This document shows, one piece after another, positions 3,106-31,845 of a DNA stretch of 32,678 nucleotides. Under the pieces are notes generated by a model, which was not told the DNA's origin, searched no databases, and worked only from the letters and a program-made list of their open reading frames with translations. How positions within the stretch are numbered: the stretch's first letter is position 1; the number at the start of each line of letters is the position of its first letter. Location of the stretch: positions 1 to 32,678 of the forward strand of contig MHPU01000029.1 of NCBI GenBank assembly GCA_001820485.1, written 5' to 3'. The translations under genes were made by a program, and so were the position numbers. The stretch is from Candidatus Staskawiczbacteria bacterium RIFOXYD1_FULL_32_13 (GTDB taxonomy: Bacteria > Patescibacteriota > Minisyncoccia > Minisyncoccales > Staskawiczbacteraceae).

Positions 3106-5625
3106 ATGAAAAAATATATTCCAAATAAAATAGAAAAAAAGTGGCAAAAGATCTGGGAGCAGAAAAAGATTTTTGAGGCAAAAAATCCTTCGACTCGCTC
3201 TGCTCGCTCAGGACAAAGTAAAAAACAGAAGTTTTTTACTTTGGTTGAGTTTCCTTATCCATCTGGAGATGGTTTACACGTAGGGCATTGCAGAAGTTAT
3301 ACAGGTTTAGATATTATTTCTCGTAAGAAAAGAATGGAGGGTAAAAATGTTTTGTTTCCAATTGGCTGGGATGCTTTTGGTTTGCCTACAGAAAATTATG
3401 CAATTAAAAAAGGCATTCATCCAAGTGTTGCTACAAAAAGAAACACCGACACATTTCGCAAGCAATTAAAAAGTTTGGGATTTTCTTTTGATTGGTCGCG
3501 TGAAGTAAATACCACAGACCCTGCTTACTATAAATGGACTCAATGGATTTTTTTGCAATTATTTAAAAATAATTTAGCTTACAAAGATAAAATTGCAATT
3601 AATTGGTGTTCTTCTTGCAAAATTGGCCTTGCTAATGAAGAAGTAGTTGCAGGAAATTGTGAAAGATGTGGCACAAAAGTTGAAAAAAAAGAAAAGGATC
3701 AATGGATGATTAAAATTACCAAGTATGCAGATAGATTGATTAAAGATTTGGATAATGTAAATTATTTGGAAAAAATAAAAATTCAGCAAAAAGAGTGGAT
3801 AGGGAAATCAGAAGGAATCAATATTGATTATAAAATTGAGGGACAAGCCTTTGCTGAAGCTTCGGCGGACAAGCAAAATAAAATCATTTCTGTTTTTACA
3901 ACAAGACCTGATACAAACTTTGGAGCTACTTTTTTGGTAGCAGGTCCAGATAGTAATTTTGTAAAAGAGAATTTAGAAACATTTCCAGAAAAAGAAAAAG
4001 TAAAGGAATATATAAAAGAAGCTTTGGCAAAAGCAGATATAGAAAGAACTGCCGAGGGTCGCAAAAAAACTGGAGTAGCTACTGGTTGGTATGCAATAAA
4101 TAATTTAAATAATAGAAAAATGCCAATTTATGTTGGTGATTTTGTGCTTGGGCAATTTGGTACTGGTTGCGTTGTTGGAGTTCCGGGACATGACTTAAGA
4201 GATTTTGAATTTGCAAAAGCAATGAACTTGGAAGTTATTAGGGTTGTTATTGGAAAAGATGGTGATACTTCAGAAATAACAGATGCAAAACAAGTACAAG
4301 AAGAAGTTGGCATAATGATAAATAGCGGATTTTTAGATGGCAAAGATATTCATGAAGCTACAAAATTGATAATGGATTATATAGAAGAAAAGGGCTGGGG
4401 TAAAAAAATAATAAATTATAAATTAAGAGATTGGGTATTTTCGCGCCAGCATTATTGGGGCGAGCCAATCCCTCTTATATATTGCAGTGATTGCGGGTGG
4501 GTGGCGGTACCAGAAAAAGACTTGCCAGTAGAACTTCCAAAAGTAAAAAAATATGAACCAACCGATAACGGAGAATCGCCACTTGCGGTAATTGAAAAAT
4601 GGGTAAATACAAAATGTCCAAAATGTGGCGGGCCTGCAAAAAGGGAAACTGATACAATGCCAAATTGGGCTGGTTCAAATTGGTATTTTTTGGCATATAC
4701 TTTTGCCAAAAATGGAAAATATAATTGGAATAATAAAGATATAGAAAGTTTTATGCCAGTTGATTGGTATAATGGTGGAATGGAGCACACCACTTTGCAT
4801 TTGCTTTATTCCAGATTTATTTTTAAATTCTTGTGGGATATTGGAGCAGTTCCAAAATCAATTGGAAGTGAGCCATATATGAAACGCACTTCCCACGGAA
4901 TGGTTTTAGGGGAAGGGGGAATTAAAATGTCAAAATCAAAAGGAAATGTAATTAATCCAGATACAGTGGTTAAAGATTTTGGAGCTGATACTTTGCGTAT
5001 TTACGAAATGTTTATGGGGCCATTTGATCAAGCAATTCCTTGGGATACAAAAGGAGTAATTGGATCACGTAGATTTTTGGAAAAAATATATAATTTAATT
5101 TCAAATTTCAAATTTCAAATTTCAAATTCAAAGGGTGTAATAAAATCTAAAATTGAAAATAGCGAACTAGATGCAGTTTTACACAAGACTATCAAAAAAG
5201 TGAGCGAGGATATTGAGTCAATGAGATTTAATACTGCAGTTTCTGCACTTATGATTTTGGTTAATGCGTTTTATGAATATCAAGAAAGTTTAACAAAAGA
5301 TAATGTAAAAAATCTTTTATTAATTCTTTCACCTTTTGCTCCACATTTAGCAGAAGAACTTTGGAGTGAAATGAAATTTAAGGGTTTGGCTTGCCAGCAA
5401 CCTTGGCCAAAATATGATGAAAAATTAATTACATCAGAAAAAGTTTTGTTGATAGTACAAATAAATGGTAAAGTAAGAGATAAAATAGAAGCTAGTTCTG
5501 GACTTTTGCAAACTGATGCTGAAAAACTTGTTAAAGAGTCAGAAAAATTAAAAGTGCACTTGGAAGGTAAACAGATTCGCAAAATAATTTATATAAAAGA
5601 TAAATTAATTAATATTGTAATATAA
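3106..5625 (+). CDS. leuS: leucyl-tRNA synthetase
   Basis: An 839-aa class I synthetase that charges tRNA-Leu with leucine in the cytoplasm, near usual bacterial length. The HIGH-type motif lies in PYPSGDGLHVGHC (about residues 49-61) and KMSKSKGN at about 606-613. The CP1 editing domain is present, with TTRPDTNFGATF, GVATGW and VPGHDLRDFEFA carrying the conserved editing Asp, so proofreading of mischarged tRNA is expected. Zinc-binding Cys pairs occur in CSSCK/CERCG and again in CPKCGG. Two short GC-rich palindromic stretches are read in frame (PSTRSARSGQS near residue 30 and AFAEASADK near 250), plus a heptamer repeat near 670. All lie outside the catalytic motifs. The start is supported by the -10 box and by homology. 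Confidence 0.98.
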   Translation: MKKYIPNKIEKKWQKIWEQKKIFEAKNPSTRSARSGQSKKQKFFTLVEFPYPSGDGLHVGHCRSYTGLDIISRKKRMEGKNVLFPIGWDAFGLPTENYAIKKGIHPSVATKRNTDTFRKQLKSLGFSFDWSREVNTTDPAYYKWTQWIFLQLFKNNLAYKDKIAINWCSSCKIGLANEEVVAGNCERCGTKVEKKEKDQWMIKITKYADRLIKDLDNVNYLEKIKIQQKEWIGKSEGINIDYKIEGQAFAEASADKQNKIISVFTTRPDTNFGATFLVAGPDSNFVKENLETFPEKEKVKEYIKEALAKADIERTAEGRKKTGVATGWYAINNLNNRKMPIYVGDFVLGQFGTGCVVGVPGHDLRDFEFAKAMNLEVIRVVIGKDGDTSEITDAKQVQEEVGIMINSGFLDGKDIHEATKLIMDYIEEKGWGKKIINYKLRDWVFSRQHYWGEPIPLIYCSDCGWVAVPEKDLPVELPKVKKYEPTDNGESPLAVIEKWVNTKCPKCGGPAKRETDTMPNWAGSNWYFLAYTFAKNGKYNWNNKDIESFMPVDWYNGGMEHTTLHLLYSRFIFKFLWDIGAVPKSIGSEPYMKRTSHGMVLGEGGIKMSKSKGNVINPDTVVKDFGADTLRIYEMFMGPFDQAIPWDTKGVIGSRRFLEKIYNLISNFKFQISNSKGVIKSKIENSELDAVLHKTIKKVSEDIESMRFNTAVSALMILVNAFYEYQESLTKDNVKNLLLILSPFAPHLAEELWSEMKFKGLACQQPWPKYDEKLITSEKVLLIVQINGKVRDKIEASSGLLQTDAEKLVKESEKLKVHLEGKQIRKIIYIKDKLINIVI
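3186..3219. repeat. palindromic element in frame in leuS (N-terminal)
   Basis: A GC-rich stretch beginning TCCTTCGACTCGCTC and ending CTCAGGACAAAG resembles a widespread intergenic repeat sequence. It is translated as PSTRSARSGQS in a non-conserved segment just before the PYPSG motif. Confidence 0.65.
3841..3873. repeat. palindromic element in frame in leuS (editing domain border)
   Basis: GGACAAG occurs at both ends, with a central near-palindrome GCTGAAGCTTCGGC. It is translated as GQAFAEASADK just before the editing-domain TTRPDT motif. Confidence 0.6.
5101..5128 (+). repeat. heptamer tandem repeat (TCAAATT)4 inside leuS
   Basis: Four exact copies of a 7-nt unit are read in frame as alternating Ser/Asn/Phe/Lys-type residues in a linker of the anticodon-binding region. 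Confidence 0.85.
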
Positions 5626-5631
5626 TAAACT

Positions 5632-5703
5632 GTCATTCCCGCAAAAGCGGGAATCCAGAGTACGAGTGTTTAACCCTGGATTCCCAATCAAGTTGGGAAT
5701 GAC
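5632..5703. repeat. 72-bp inverted-repeat element, copy 1
   Basis: The termini GTCATTCCC and GGGAATGAC are perfect inverted repeats. Inside are two hairpins, CCCGC-AAAA-GCGGG and CCCAA/TTGGG, flanked by GAATCCAG and CTGGATTC. It has the same length and plan as 10486-10557 and resembles MITE/REP-like intergenic repeats. It lies just after leuS. Confidence 0.9.
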
Positions 5704-5737
5704 GCGAAGGAAAAAACAAAAATTAAAGTAAAAATTT

Positions 5738-10478: not shown

Positions 10479-10485
10479 CATTAGT

Positions 10486-10557
10486 GTTATTCCCGCAAAA
10501 GCGGGAATCCAGAGTGCGTGCACTTAATTCTGGATTCCCAATCAAGTTGGGAATGAC
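10486..10557. repeat. 72-bp inverted-repeat element, copy 2
   Basis: It has the same length, termini (GTTATTCCC/GGGAATGAC) and two internal hairpins as 5632-5703, differing mainly in the central spacer. It ends a few bases before the next gene's start codon. Confidence 0.9.
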
Positions 10558-10565
10558 AAATGACT

Positions 10566-13608: not shown

Positions 13609-13680
13609 TTTATCTAATAGGAATATTTAAATTTATACGACAATAAATAGCGGTCGCTTCCTATTGTCGTATTAGATAAA
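13609..13680. repeat. outer inverted repeat around B1
   Basis: TTTATCTAATA (from 13609) is the exact complement of TATTAGATAAA (ending 13680), which overlaps the right end of palindrome B1. The two foldings exclude each other. Confidence 0.55.
13635..13672. repeat. 38-bp palindromic repeat B, copy 1 (left of Cas2-like gene)
   Basis: The 11-bp outer arms ATACGACAATA/TATTGTCGTAT are perfect. The inner palindrome AGCG-GT-CGCT is centred between 3-nt spacers, so the plan is 11+3+10+3+11. It is unrelated in sequence to repeat A but has the same length. Confidence 0.95.
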
Positions 13681-13692: not shown

Positions 13693-14271
13693 ATGAAAAG
13701 AAAAAACAATCAGATTTTTAGAAAATTTTCTGGGATATCAGGACTTGTTTTGATTGTGTTATTACTGACTGGTGCTGTTGTTATTTCAGCCACTTCTCCA
13801 TACTTTTTAGTCAATCTTTTTAAGAGTAAGTTTTTTAGAAGTTTTAAAAAATATCCACCAAAGAAAGTTTATGATACTTTTTATAGACTCAGAGAAAGAG
13901 GTTTTATAGATTTTTATTATAAAGGTAGTCAAATTTATTTTACGCTTACTGAAAAAGGAAAGAAAAAAGCTGGCTGGCTTAAAGTTGATGATTTAAAAAT
14001 TAATAAACCAAAAAAGTGGGATGGAAAATGGAGGATATTGTCTTTTGATATTGTGGAATTAAAAAGAAGTTATAGAGAGGCTTTAAGAGGAAAATTAATT
14101 GGCATGGGTTTTAAATTGTTTCAAAAAAGTGCATGGATCATTCCCTATGAGTGTAATAAAGAAATAAAAATTCTTAAAGATTTTTTTGGATTAAACGACA
14201 GAGAAGTAAAGCTTATTACTGCTGTTGATATTGGGGAAGACAAAGATTTGCATGATCATTTTGATTTATAA
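13693..14271 (+). CDS. membrane-anchored PaaX/Cas2-like winged-helix protein (paralogue B)
   Basis: 192 aa, colinear with paralogue A at 1778. A hydrophobic segment lies at about 14-43 (VLIVLLLTGAVVISATSPYFLVN), a winged-helix-like region at about 53-95 (VYDTFYRLRERGFIDF, QIYFTLTEKGKKKA), and a Cas2/PaaX-like domain at about 112-192 (WRILSFDI with D119, ALRGKLIGMGFKLFQKSAWIIPY, GEDKDL). The C-terminal halves of A and B are the most alike, while the flanking palindromes differ completely, as expected if each protein recognises its own repeat. There is no CRISPR array or cas1, so CRISPR adaptation is not supported. It could be an autoregulator or a repeat-processing nuclease. Confidence 0.8.
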   Translation: MKRKNNQIFRKFSGISGLVLIVLLLTGAVVISATSPYFLVNLFKSKFFRSFKKYPPKKVYDTFYRLRERGFIDFYYKGSQIYFTLTEKGKKKAGWLKVDDLKINKPKKWDGKWRILSFDIVELKRSYREALRGKLIGMGFKLFQKSAWIIPYECNKEIKILKDFFGLNDREVKLITAVDIGEDKDLHDHFDL

Positions 14272-14311: not shown

Positions 14312-14390
14312 TATATAGTACGACATAATTTAGCGGTCGCTTCCTATTGTCGTATGGTTGTATTGGCGTTTGACGTATAGTTACTATATA
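14312..14390. repeat. outer inverted repeat around B2
   Basis: TATATAGTA (14312-14320, overlapping the left end of B2) and TACTATATA (14382-14390) are perfect complements enclosing palindrome B2 and 26 more bases. Confidence 0.5.
14318..14355. repeat. 38-bp palindromic repeat B, copy 2 (right of Cas2-like gene)
   Basis: The core AGCGGTCGCTTCC and right arm TATTGTCGTAT are identical to copy 1. The left arm GTACGACATAA has three changes. It has the same orientation and length. Confidence 0.95.
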
Positions 14391-29020: not shown

Positions 29021-29072
29021 AAAAACCTATATTAATATTTATGCGTACGCATATTTATTACCATAGGTTTTT
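29021..29072. repeat. 52-bp near-perfect palindrome
   Basis: The two 26-nt halves pair at 22 of 26 positions, with outer arms AAAAACCTAT/ATAGGTTTTT and centre ATGCGTACGCAT. TT and ATTTT follow, so a terminator is possible, but the length suggests a cruciform or another REP-like element. Repeat A3 begins 13 nt later. Confidence 0.75.
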
Positions 29073-29085
29073 TTATTTTGATTGT

Positions 29086-29123
29086 GTGTATATTAACAAT
29101 GCTATGGCTGAATTAATATATAT
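29086..29123. repeat. 38-bp palindromic repeat A, copy 3 (solo, no Cas2-like gene)
   Basis: The left arm GTGTATATTAA is identical to copies 1 and 2. The core ATGCTATGGCTGA is nearly that of copy 2, and the right arm TTAATATATAT differs by one base from copy 1. It lies about 100 bp upstream of lexA. Confidence 0.9.
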
Positions 29124-29173
29124 ATTTTTGTGTCGTTATTTATTATTGTGGTTGCAGGAAAGGAAATTTTGAG

Positions 29174-29193: not shown

Positions 29194-29221
29194 TTGACTG
29201 GACTATTTGGTCGGGTATAAT
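29194..29221 (+). promoter_or_regulatory. promoter of lexA, leaderless start predicted
   Basis: TTGACT (29194-29199) and a perfect TATAAT (29216-29221) are 16 nt apart. The -10 ends 6 nt before the ATG at 29228. I could not identify a clear LexA operator. Confidence 0.7.
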
Positions 29222-29227
29222 TAAATA

Positions 29228-29878
29228 ATGAAAAATATGATAACGCAAAGGCAAAAACAATTATTACAGATTATTTATGATTATATTAAGGACACTGGTT
29301 ACCCTCCTACTTTTGAAGAAATGCGAGAAAGTTTAGGCGTGGTTTCAAATCAATCTATAATTGATCTTTTGGCAAAATTAGAAAAACAGAAATTTATTAA
29401 GAAAAGTGAGGCATCTGCCAGGGGCCTTGCAATTTTGCCATTGGGTAACAAAATTTTAGGTCAAATGCCCTTAATTCCATTTTTGGGTAACACTACAGCA
29501 GGTTTACCAATGGAAGCGATGGAAATAACTGGCGAGTGGAAACAAATTTCATCGGAAATTAAAGAATTTAAAAATAATGTTTTCATTTTAAAAGTTTTTG
29601 GTGATTCAATGATAAATGCTGGCATAGAAAATGAAGATATGGTTTTAGTTCAAGAACAAAAAGAATTTATTTCAGGGGATATAGTTTTTGCAAAAATAGA
29701 AGATGGCTCAACAATAAAAAGATTTGTTAAAACATCTGCCTCAAAAAGCAAATTTCCTTGTGTTTACTTAAAACCTGAAAATCCAAAATATAAAAATATA
29801 ATATTCACAGAAAATATGGAGCTTAAAGGAAAAGTAATTTCAATATTAAAAAATGGCTATTGGATGCCAATAAAATAA
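29228..29878 (+). CDS. lexA: LexA repressor
   Basis: A 216-aa SOS repressor with self-cleavage stimulated by RecA filaments. The N-terminal winged helix is ITQRQKQLLQIIYDYIKDTGYPPTFEEMRESLG, then a QSIIDLLAKLEKQKFIKK recognition region. The S24-type protease domain has the A91-G92 cleavage site (TTAGLP), the nucleophile S127 in GDSM and the general base K164 in STIKRF, all at spacings typical of LexA. An inner Met (residue 4) could be the start, but the -10 spacing supports 29228. Targets are not visible here. Confidence 0.95.
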   Translation: MKNMITQRQKQLLQIIYDYIKDTGYPPTFEEMRESLGVVSNQSIIDLLAKLEKQKFIKKSEASARGLAILPLGNKILGQMPLIPFLGNTTAGLPMEAMEITGEWKQISSEIKEFKNNVFILKVFGDSMINAGIENEDMVLVQEQKEFISGDIVFAKIEDGSTIKRFVKTSASKSKFPCVYLKPENPKYKNIIFTENMELKGKVISILKNGYWMPIK

Positions 29879-29894: not shown

Positions 29895-31166
29895 ATGGAA
29901 ACAGAAATTATAAATTTATTTAAAAATTGTAAAATTGATTATTCTTGGTCCTTTTCTGATAAAACCAGAAAGGATACTGCTTATATTACACATGGTTTTC
30001 ATCGTTATCCTGCAAAGTTTATCCCTCAAATAGTTTCTCGTCTCACAGAAAAATATACGAAAGTAGGTGATTTTATCGTAGATCCATTTGGGGGTTGTGG
30101 TACGACAATTGTTGAGTCAAAAGTTATGGGCAGACCATCAATTGCAGTTGATATCAATCCCGTTGCTACCTTAATAACAAAAGCAAAAGCTACTCCAATA
30201 AATCCTATAAAAATTGAAAAAGAATTTATAAATCTAAAATATAAATTAGATAATTATAGTGATAATACAAAAGTAATTGTTCCAACTCACGAGAGAATTG
30301 ATTATTGGTTTAAAACAGAAGAAAAAAGAAAATTAGCCTTTATTCTTTTTGAAATAATAAAAATTAAGGATCAAGACATTCAAGATTTTTTCTTTTGTGG
30401 ATTTTCAAATATTTTGAAAAATTGCTCAATATGGTTACAAAAAAGCAATAAGCCAACTAGAGATTTTGAGAAAAAATCAGCAGATCCAATTAAATTATTT
30501 TATAGACAAATAAAGATGATGTTAAGAGGCAATGAACAAATTTTTAATTTATTATCAGAAAAAGGTTATTTAAAAACTCCAAGTAAGGTTGTCTGTACTG
30601 ATGCTAGAAAAATTCCAACAAAAGATAATAGTGTCAATTTGATTGTTACTTCTCCGCCATACGTGACTTCTTATGAATATGCTGATTTACATCAGCTTAC
30701 TGCTTTGTGGCTTGAATATACAAAAGACTTAAGTGATTTTAGAAAAAGATTTATTGGGACTTCTTATAATAATAAAAAGAATTTAGTTTTAAACAGTATT
30801 CTTGCAGAAAAAATAAGGAGTGATTTGTTAGATATTGATAAAAAAACTGCTGAAGAAGTCTCAACATATTTTAGTGAAATGAATCAGGTTTTTGTTGAAA
30901 TGAAAAGAATACTAAAAAAAGGAGGGAAAACTTGTATCGTTGTTGGCAATACAAGTTTAAAAGGAGTAAAAATTTTAAATGCAGAAGTTTTTGCAGAACA
31001 ATTAAAAAATTTGGGTTTAAAAATTGTTGATATTATTAAAAGAGAAATTCCATCAAAAAATTTGCCATCTGTTAGAGATAAAGAAACTGGAAAATTCGCT
31101 AAAATAAGCGATAAAAATAAAGTTTCAGCTTATCCAACAGAGTATATTCTAATAATGGAAAAATAA
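29895..31166 (+). CDS. DNA methyltransferase (N4-cytosine/N6-adenine type)
   Basis: 423 aa. HRYPAKFIPQIV and DPFGGCGTT (63-71) form the SAM-binding region; TSPPYVTSYEYADL (from 252) is the catalytic SPPY motif of amino-methyltransferases. Motif I precedes motif IV with about 180 residues between, which likely hold the target-recognition region; this is an alpha-like order. It stands first in an M-R-M cluster with the endonuclease 4 nt downstream, so it probably protects host sites. Confidence 0.87.
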   Translation: METEIINLFKNCKIDYSWSFSDKTRKDTAYITHGFHRYPAKFIPQIVSRLTEKYTKVGDFIVDPFGGCGTTIVESKVMGRPSIAVDINPVATLITKAKATPINPIKIEKEFINLKYKLDNYSDNTKVIVPTHERIDYWFKTEEKRKLAFILFEIIKIKDQDIQDFFFCGFSNILKNCSIWLQKSNKPTRDFEKKSADPIKLFYRQIKMMLRGNEQIFNLLSEKGYLKTPSKVVCTDARKIPTKDNSVNLIVTSPPYVTSYEYADLHQLTALWLEYTKDLSDFRKRFIGTSYNNKKNLVLNSILAEKIRSDLLDIDKKTAEEVSTYFSEMNQVFVEMKRILKKGGKTCIVVGNTSLKGVKILNAEVFAEQLKNLGLKIVDIIKREIPSKNLPSVRDKETGKFAKISDKNKVSAYPTEYILIMEK

Positions 31167-31170
31167 AAAT

Positions 31171-31845
31171 ATGAATTTAGATAAAATTAAAAAAATTTAT
31201 TTAGCGAAAAAAGATAAAGAATTAGATCATAATTTTATCAAAAGTATTTTTGATGAAATTAAAAAGGAGTATAAAGAAGAGAAAATTATTGAGGGCAAAG
31301 ATGCAAATCAATCATGGAATTCTTGGAGTGGGAAGGCATTACAAGAATTGATTAAATTTATCGTCGAGGATTATGTTTCGACCTTAAATTACCCAATTGG
31401 AATAACTGATGATACAAAATTAAGAAATAAAAAATTATCGCCAGAATTAGATAAAGTCAGAAGGAATATAGAAATATTTTATGATTCGTACTCAATTATA
31501 CCAGATGCGGATATAGTAATTTATGATAAGTCTAATTATAAAATTATTGCAGTATTATCTTGTAAGGCAAGTTTGAGGGAAAGGGTTGCACAGGCAGCAT
31601 ATTGGAAATTAAAATTTCAATACAACGATACAACAAAAGATATTTTGTATTATCTTTTGTCTACAGATAATGATGGAGATTTTTTAGAGATTGGGGAAAA
31701 CATAAGTAGAGATAGGGTTATTGTAGAATATGGAGAAATTGATAGAGCGTACATTTTTCGTGATATTCCAGAAAGCGATAAAGTTAAAAATTTTTCAAAG
31801 ATTTTTGATGACCTTAAAGTTTTATTTGGAAAATGGTTTAAATAA
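31171..31845 (+). CDS. type II restriction endonuclease, PD-(D/E)xK, possibly BsaWI/CCGG group
   Basis: 224 aa. The catalytic core is PDADIVIYD (111-119) followed by AVLSCKASLRERVAQAAYWKLK: P111-D112, then S130-x-K132 fits the PD...SxK variant of the CCGG-cutting family, and the SLRER motif resembles the BsaWI-type recognition segment. SWNSWSGKALQELIKF provides an upstream helix with Glu. The site is therefore inferred to contain CCGG. It lies 4 nt after the first methyltransferase and 6 nt before the second. Confidence 0.8.
   Translation: MNLDKIKKIYLAKKDKELDHNFIKSIFDEIKKEYKEEKIIEGKDANQSWNSWSGKALQELIKFIVEDYVSTLNYPIGITDDTKLRNKKLSPELDKVRRNIEIFYDSYSIIPDADIVIYDKSNYKIIAVLSCKASLRERVAQAAYWKLKFQYNDTTKDILYYLLSTDNDGDFLEIGENISRDRVIVEYGEIDRAYIFRDIPESDKVKNFSKIFDDLKVLFGKWFK

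Follow-up and report, generated by a model that had tools for sequence, protein, structure and literature searches.

A solitary palindrome upstream of lexA and its relation to palindrome-bordered genes for Cas2-like proteins in Patescibacteria

In the draft genome of Candidatus Staskawiczbacteria bacterium RIFOXYD1_FULL_32_13 (G000; ∼1.03 Mb), a 38-bp palindrome, repeat A, stands alone at positions 29086 to 29123 (+ strand) upstream of lexA, which raises the question of what it is and how it came to lie there. The window analyzed here comprises the entire contig C29, with 32,678 nucleotides. The copy, GTGTATATTAACAATGCTATGGCTGAATTAATATATAT, shows 0 mismatches to the repeat consensus, as do the copies at 1698 to 1735 and 2392 to 2429, and all three contain the same left arm, GTGTATATTAA; the number of matches expected from 100 shuffles is 0. 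The preliminary description of this locus, which reported a third copy with an identical left arm and no Cas2-like gene nearby, is borne out in both respects, the cognate gene lying 27 kb away and the closest paralogue ∼15 kb away. A genome-wide search with up to 3 mismatches yields exactly five copies, namely, the two borders of the cognate gene and three solo copies, two of them outside the window (C39:113643-113680 and C40:8215-8252).

The gene cognate to repeat A (1778 to 2356, + strand) encodes a protein of 192 amino acids with a winged helix and a Cas2-like domain. Together with an upstream palindrome (U; 1698 to 1735, + strand), which adjoins its promoter region, and a downstream palindrome (D; 2392 to 2429, + strand), it forms unit A, spanning ∼730 bp. 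The protein matches the Pfam family PaaX_M (E value of 7e-21), and its predicted model (pLDDT of 86) has PaaX from E. coli as the best PDB match, with other PaaX-family and Cas2 structures lower in the list. Unit B is located between ftsA and ftsZ and consists of a gene 57% identical to that of unit A (13693 to 14271, + strand) with palindromes at 13635 to 13672 and 14318 to 14355. No Cas1 partner was noticed beside these two units. The window also contains two ∼75-bp stretches (∼5610 to 5710 and ∼10480 to 10565) that match many places in the sister genome G001 at about 80 to 96% identity; these represent another dispersed repeat family with no relation to palindrome A.

The Cas2-like gene is present in ten copies in the genome, the nine others showing 35 to 73% identity to the unit A gene in the aligned parts, and all 10 paralogues carry a palindrome of their own type on both sides. 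This arrangement extends across the Patescibacteria, where a matching palindrome pair is found at 86.5% of 133 relatives, compared to 1.8% of 164 ordinary genes, and where 60 of 76 pairs from named genomes lie above the 95th percentile of mismatched flanks. Among the 133 relatives, the upstream palindrome is situated ∼47 bp 5′ of the start codon and the downstream palindrome ∼39 bp 3′ of the stop codon, with a median centre-to-centre distance of 658 bp. Each palindrome is built of variable arms of ∼8 to 11 bp around a centre such as GCTATAGC, ACGATCGT, GCGGTCGC, or GCATATGC and folds as a hairpin. The repeats are A+T rich, so that a fortuitous or low-complexity resemblance within intergenic DNA of like composition might be considered, but with 0 expected matches, 0 matches of reversed repeats in 424 kb, and the low rate among the control genes, this explanation has a negligible probability.

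The arm sequence is specific to the gene. Arms agree at 9.6/10 where the proteins are at least 80% identical and at 7.6 where identity is 70 to 80%, and agreement falls to background below 50%. The correlation of protein distance with arm similarity over all pairs is weak (Spearman coefficient of 0.04, reached by 20 of 500 permutations), because the arms agree among close relatives only. The arms at both ends of one unit change together, as in the orthologue of unit A at the same tatD-leuS locus of G001, which has different arms at both ends. The inner sequences of U and D are arranged directly in 22 units and inversely in 7, while each end is perfect in about 14 and the arrangement is undecided in 59. 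An asymmetric inner sequence common to U and D points not only to binding but also to copying from one end to the other.

Solo copies of these palindromes follow the distribution of the gene. With the palindromes of nine units as queries, ∼15 solo copies of all types are found in G000, about five in G001, and one or two in G003; there are none in G002, a genome without the Cas2-like gene. Five other genomes, searched with their own palindromes, contain roughly 14, 16, 8, 5, and 5 solo copies (∼48), counted by hand from a table with known unit ends left out. In six genomes from the same family that lack the gene, no palindrome match is seen, which brings the gene-free relatives without solo copies, G002 included, to seven. 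The solo copies are intergenic, often near terminators, and do not lie beside a Cas2-like gene of their own type except for the one at C34:10619, ∼570 bp outside an own-type unit. At C26:998-1076, two B-type palindromes form a doublet with a gene-free spacer of 12 bp. Of the 14 solo loci examined, three have convergent genes on their two sides and hence no neighboring promoter to serve; together with the five copies of repeat A, this differs from the case that the preliminary description had weighed against a dispersed repeat, a set of no more than three copies, each in the promoter of a coregulated gene. That recombination of end halves at the centre gave rise to the solo copies of types A and B is suggestive but not claimed, since the half-sites differ little and several solo copies of type B do not fit.

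These distributions also bear on whether the palindromes belong to the host, as hairpins or cruciforms recognized by enzymes of the host or by a trans-acting transposase, with the Cas2-like gene as a passenger that binds them. Their hairpin folding, the fast change of arms between relatives while pairing is kept, and the occurrence of the same layout with different protein families, described below, would be in line with such a repeat; yet the ends of a unit have a common arm sequence and not structure alone, with the close agreement given above for proteins at least 80% identical, and the solo copies follow the cognate gene, which makes a host-driven repeat improbable.

The gene downstream of the solo A copy (29228 to 29878, + strand) had been labeled correctly as lexA, with matches to Peptidase_S24 (E value of 3e-24) and LexA_DNA_bind (E value of 9e-13) in Pfam. 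A consensus scan places a promoter-like site, TTGACT-16-TATAAT, at 29194 to 29221 (+ strand), and repeat A lies ∼70 bp upstream of its −35 box. A second solo palindrome, at 29025 to 29068, which the preliminary description does not mention, stands side by side with repeat A and is of a different type, that of the paralogue at C19:7487-8023 (34/40 identity; hairpin fold); the genome-wide solo search recorded it as C29:29018-29068, and the reversed query gave 0 matches at ≥28/40 in 424 kb. Both palindromes are located 5′ of the promoter-like site. Occupancy in a sister genome, a check named in the preliminary description, shows the lexA promoter conserved in G003 and neither palindrome present there.

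Repeat A upstream of lexA is contained in a segment of ∼100 bp (29068 to 29171, + strand) that aligns with the region 5′ of a LOOT RNA gene on contig C40. The tail of this segment (29146 to 29171) occurs at two genome sites only, upstream of lexA and in the C40 LOOT upstream region. LOOT RNA genes (RF03000) were found at the C40-side locus (L025:2976-3102, − strand) and at a locus of G003 (L159:1610-1730). In both G003 and G001, the tail is present upstream of the same stretch, beside another palindrome or a complete unit; this and the lack of both palindromes at lexA of G003 indicate that the transfer likely ran from the LOOT locus to lexA. The lexA copy thus moved together with flanking host DNA, which favors a segmental duplication over clean transposition, and an independent clean insertion is rejected on account of the ∼100 bp held in common with the LOOT locus. 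The preliminary view of a dispersed REP-like copy agrees with the three solo A copies, the ∼15 of all types, and the unoccupied lexA site of G003, whereas mobilization of the MITE type by the Cas2-like protein is a conjecture.

The site just upstream of the LOOT RNA is occupied by solo A in G000 and by a different palindrome in G003, and at G001:C60, a complete unit stands beside the matching tail; the site is an apparent hot spot. Directly 3′ of lexA (29895 to 31845), a methyltransferase gene is followed by a gene for a BsaWI-like restriction endonuclease (RE_BsaWI; E value of 2e-23), forming a restriction-modification pair; the spacing to the next match is not the same in G003.

The presence of the units is patchy. 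The gene occurs in 85 of 287 genomes of the phylum, and the numbers of copies within one genus are 10, 6, 0, and 5. Unit B is found between ftsA and ftsZ in three species, and in G002, these two genes nearly adjoin each other. Unit A is missing between tatD and leuS in G002 and G003, the unit upstream of rpsL is missing in G001, with both neighbors conserved and no palindrome left, and the unit after rlmN is missing at that place in all three sisters. The direction of change at these empty sites is inferred, and they could be losses. Several units occupy the same place among sister genomes, and for most units in the genus vertical inheritance seems to apply, accompanied by gains or losses that must be recurrent because the presence patterns conflict: unit A is shared by G000 and G001 and the rpsL unit by G000 and G003. 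Two related pairs have dissimilar flanks in sister genomes, and in comparisons of element with element, the similarity often stops at the outer edge of the palindromes. No target-site duplication was seen by eye in sisters too diverged for base-precise junctions, and neither a circle nor recent identical copies were found.

Carriage by phages was rejected, as no relative is contained in viral contigs or phage records, and carriage by plasmids was likewise rejected, with nothing closer than distant PaaX-type matches in plasmid records from actinobacteria. An existing palindrome as the insertion target, leading to a long target duplication, is not favored either, since the empty rpsL site of G001 has no palindrome and some pairs are inverted. 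At the position of the unit after ksgA of G000, G003 shows a small gene resembling four-helix-bundle proteins (L321; G003:C50).

The promoter arrangement distinguishes the two palindromes of a unit. In 102 of 131 units, the gene-facing side of U carries a TATAAT-like box, compared to 75 of 131 after D, and U is therefore probably also an autoregulatory operator. Outward of D, the count of 75 of 131 represents no enrichment over the 73 of 131 outward of U, so that D needs another reason, most simply that of an element end. A role of D as an operator for the gene that follows was rejected on these counts and because the downstream neighbor is convergent in 35 of 118 units.

A purely regulatory reading would make the protein a PaaX-like autorepressor with U as its operator, D as a second operator that acts by looping, as a road-block, or as an insulator, and the solo copies, that at lexA included, as operators of a small regulon, the gene having spread by ordinary horizontal transfer without a transposition function. 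The best structural match, the repressor PaaX, agrees with this, as do the TATAAT-like boxes following U and the location of the lexA and LOOT copies, each upstream of a gene. The layout itself is not confined to the Cas2-like genes: a scan for paired palindromes in 424 kb found three small helix-turn-helix genes with palindrome pairs of their own, two of the ArsR type (L174:6817-7246 and L173:14911-15239) and one of the HTH_17 type (L173:2961-3184, contig C39), and these palindromes have a few further copies elsewhere. Three unrelated genes with the same layout and extra copies imply that paired palindromes alone are no proof of mobility and make an autoregulator with two operators and additional sites a serious rival. 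It is nevertheless rather unlikely as the whole explanation: D shows no outward promoter enrichment, the convergent neighbors of units and of solo loci noted above do not suit it, the lexA copy lies ∼70 bp upstream of a −35 box whose promoter is kept in G003 without the palindrome, and the asymmetric inner sequence in both U and D is not required by binding alone.

The protein family combines features of two known groups. A PF20803 Cas2-like domain behind a winged helix, the domain order of the PaaX repressors (TIGR02277; E. coli PaaX, PDB 8a39), is present in 64 of 64 members. The family proteins, however, are about 190 amino acids in length, compared to 316 amino acids for PaaX, and lack the C-terminal part, scoring 27 to 49 bits against the full-length PaaX model TIGR02277, with its cutoff of 264.6. 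Moreover, their genes are palindrome bordered on both sides and occur as many paralogues per genome. In common with Cas2 (PF09827 and TIGR01573), they show a ferredoxin-like fold, an invariant aspartate ending strand 1, and a QxS motif. Among 133 proteins, the metal-binding aspartate (D119) is conserved in 99% and the QxS motif in 100%, both of which are absent from E. coli PaaX; the TIGR01573 cutoff of 24.5 bits is reached by 3 of 8 paralogues. Contrary to Cas2, the proteins are fused to a winged helix; none was noticed in a CRISPR locus. Only 3 of 133 proteins contain an HUH-type motif, with no conserved HUH column, and the family has no conserved recombinase motif in these 133 proteins; an identity as an HUH/Tyr transposase is therefore rejected.

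Among known mobile systems, RAYT/REP (TnpA-REP or REPtron; PMC2817692 and PMC8266576) comes closest in layout; its gene lies between two mutually inverted cognate palindromes (PMC2817692) and encodes an HUH/Tyr transposase, and a genome usually contains >100 solo copies. The likeness consists of a single gene between two copies of a short palindrome, of cognate solo palindromes dispersed in intergenic DNA, some as doublets, and of a gene that behaves more as a resident than as an active transposon and to which the palindrome type corresponds. In contrast, the borders described here are direct, inverted, or mixed, the protein is a winged-helix Cas2-like protein, and solo copies are few per type (∼15 over the nine queried types in G000 and roughly 5 to 16 per genome in the five others). 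The GTAG/GTGG tetranucleotide of RAYT/REP was not evident in an informal look beside the listed palindromes. As the HUH motif, consistently inverted ends, and a high copy number are all lacking, the Cas2-like units are RAYT/REP-like in their working at most and not a member of that group. MITEs are similar in being short noncoding repeats that resemble the termini of a longer unit, with the B-type doublet as an example, but the solo copies here are mostly single palindromes with no target-site duplication detected, and a parental transposase is only putative. Casposons and other Cas-derived elements likewise link a relative of a Cas protein to a possible mobile element, although casposons use Cas1 and the protein here is Cas2-like. 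DNA transposons and insertion sequences share the cognate ends on both sides of a gene and the empty sites, seen here at ftsA-ftsZ, tatD-leuS, and rpsL. Judged by sequence, the palindrome-bordered Cas2-like genes with their stray copies have the appearance of small spreading elements of a kind not yet described; no description of such units was found in the literature searched, where absence is no proof.

For the repeat at 29086, the balance of probability tips slightly toward a REP-like solo copy of a predicted binding site, with the gene at 1778 to 2356 and its borders forming a slowly spreading single-gene element. Here, a dimer of the winged helix would most likely bind the two arms of each palindrome, and the upstream palindrome would double as an autoregulatory operator. 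The palindrome pair may also serve as element ends at which movement or recombination is occasionally possible, stray copies being left as by-products, and the lexA copy would have been delivered when ∼100 bp from upstream of the LOOT RNA was duplicated. Palindrome pairing, gene specificity, the joint change of the arms, the solo copies and their lack in gene-free genomes, the empty sites, and the segment common to lexA and LOOT are observed directly; binding, autoregulation, and protein-driven movement are inferred. Doubtful, by comparison, is the farther-reaching proposal that a winged-helix Cas2-like protein with the Cas2 aspartate recombines its own palindromic ends throughout the phylum and scatters REP-like copies without Cas1. 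The REP-like reading with which the study of this locus began is partly supported and leads to a phylum-wide association.

The genes of this family match models that annotate PaaX regulators or stand-alone Cas2 proteins. The paired gene-specific palindromes assign most of them to defined units whose cognate sites are directly readable from the sequence, so that one purified protein and an oligonucleotide of 40 bp suffice to test the function. If the units are mobile, they would be a Cas2-derived counterpart of REP/RAYT, relevant to the way in which the Cas2 fold acquired a role in DNA handling; if not, they would still constitute a large uncharacterized family of regulators with predictable operators in uncultured bacteria.
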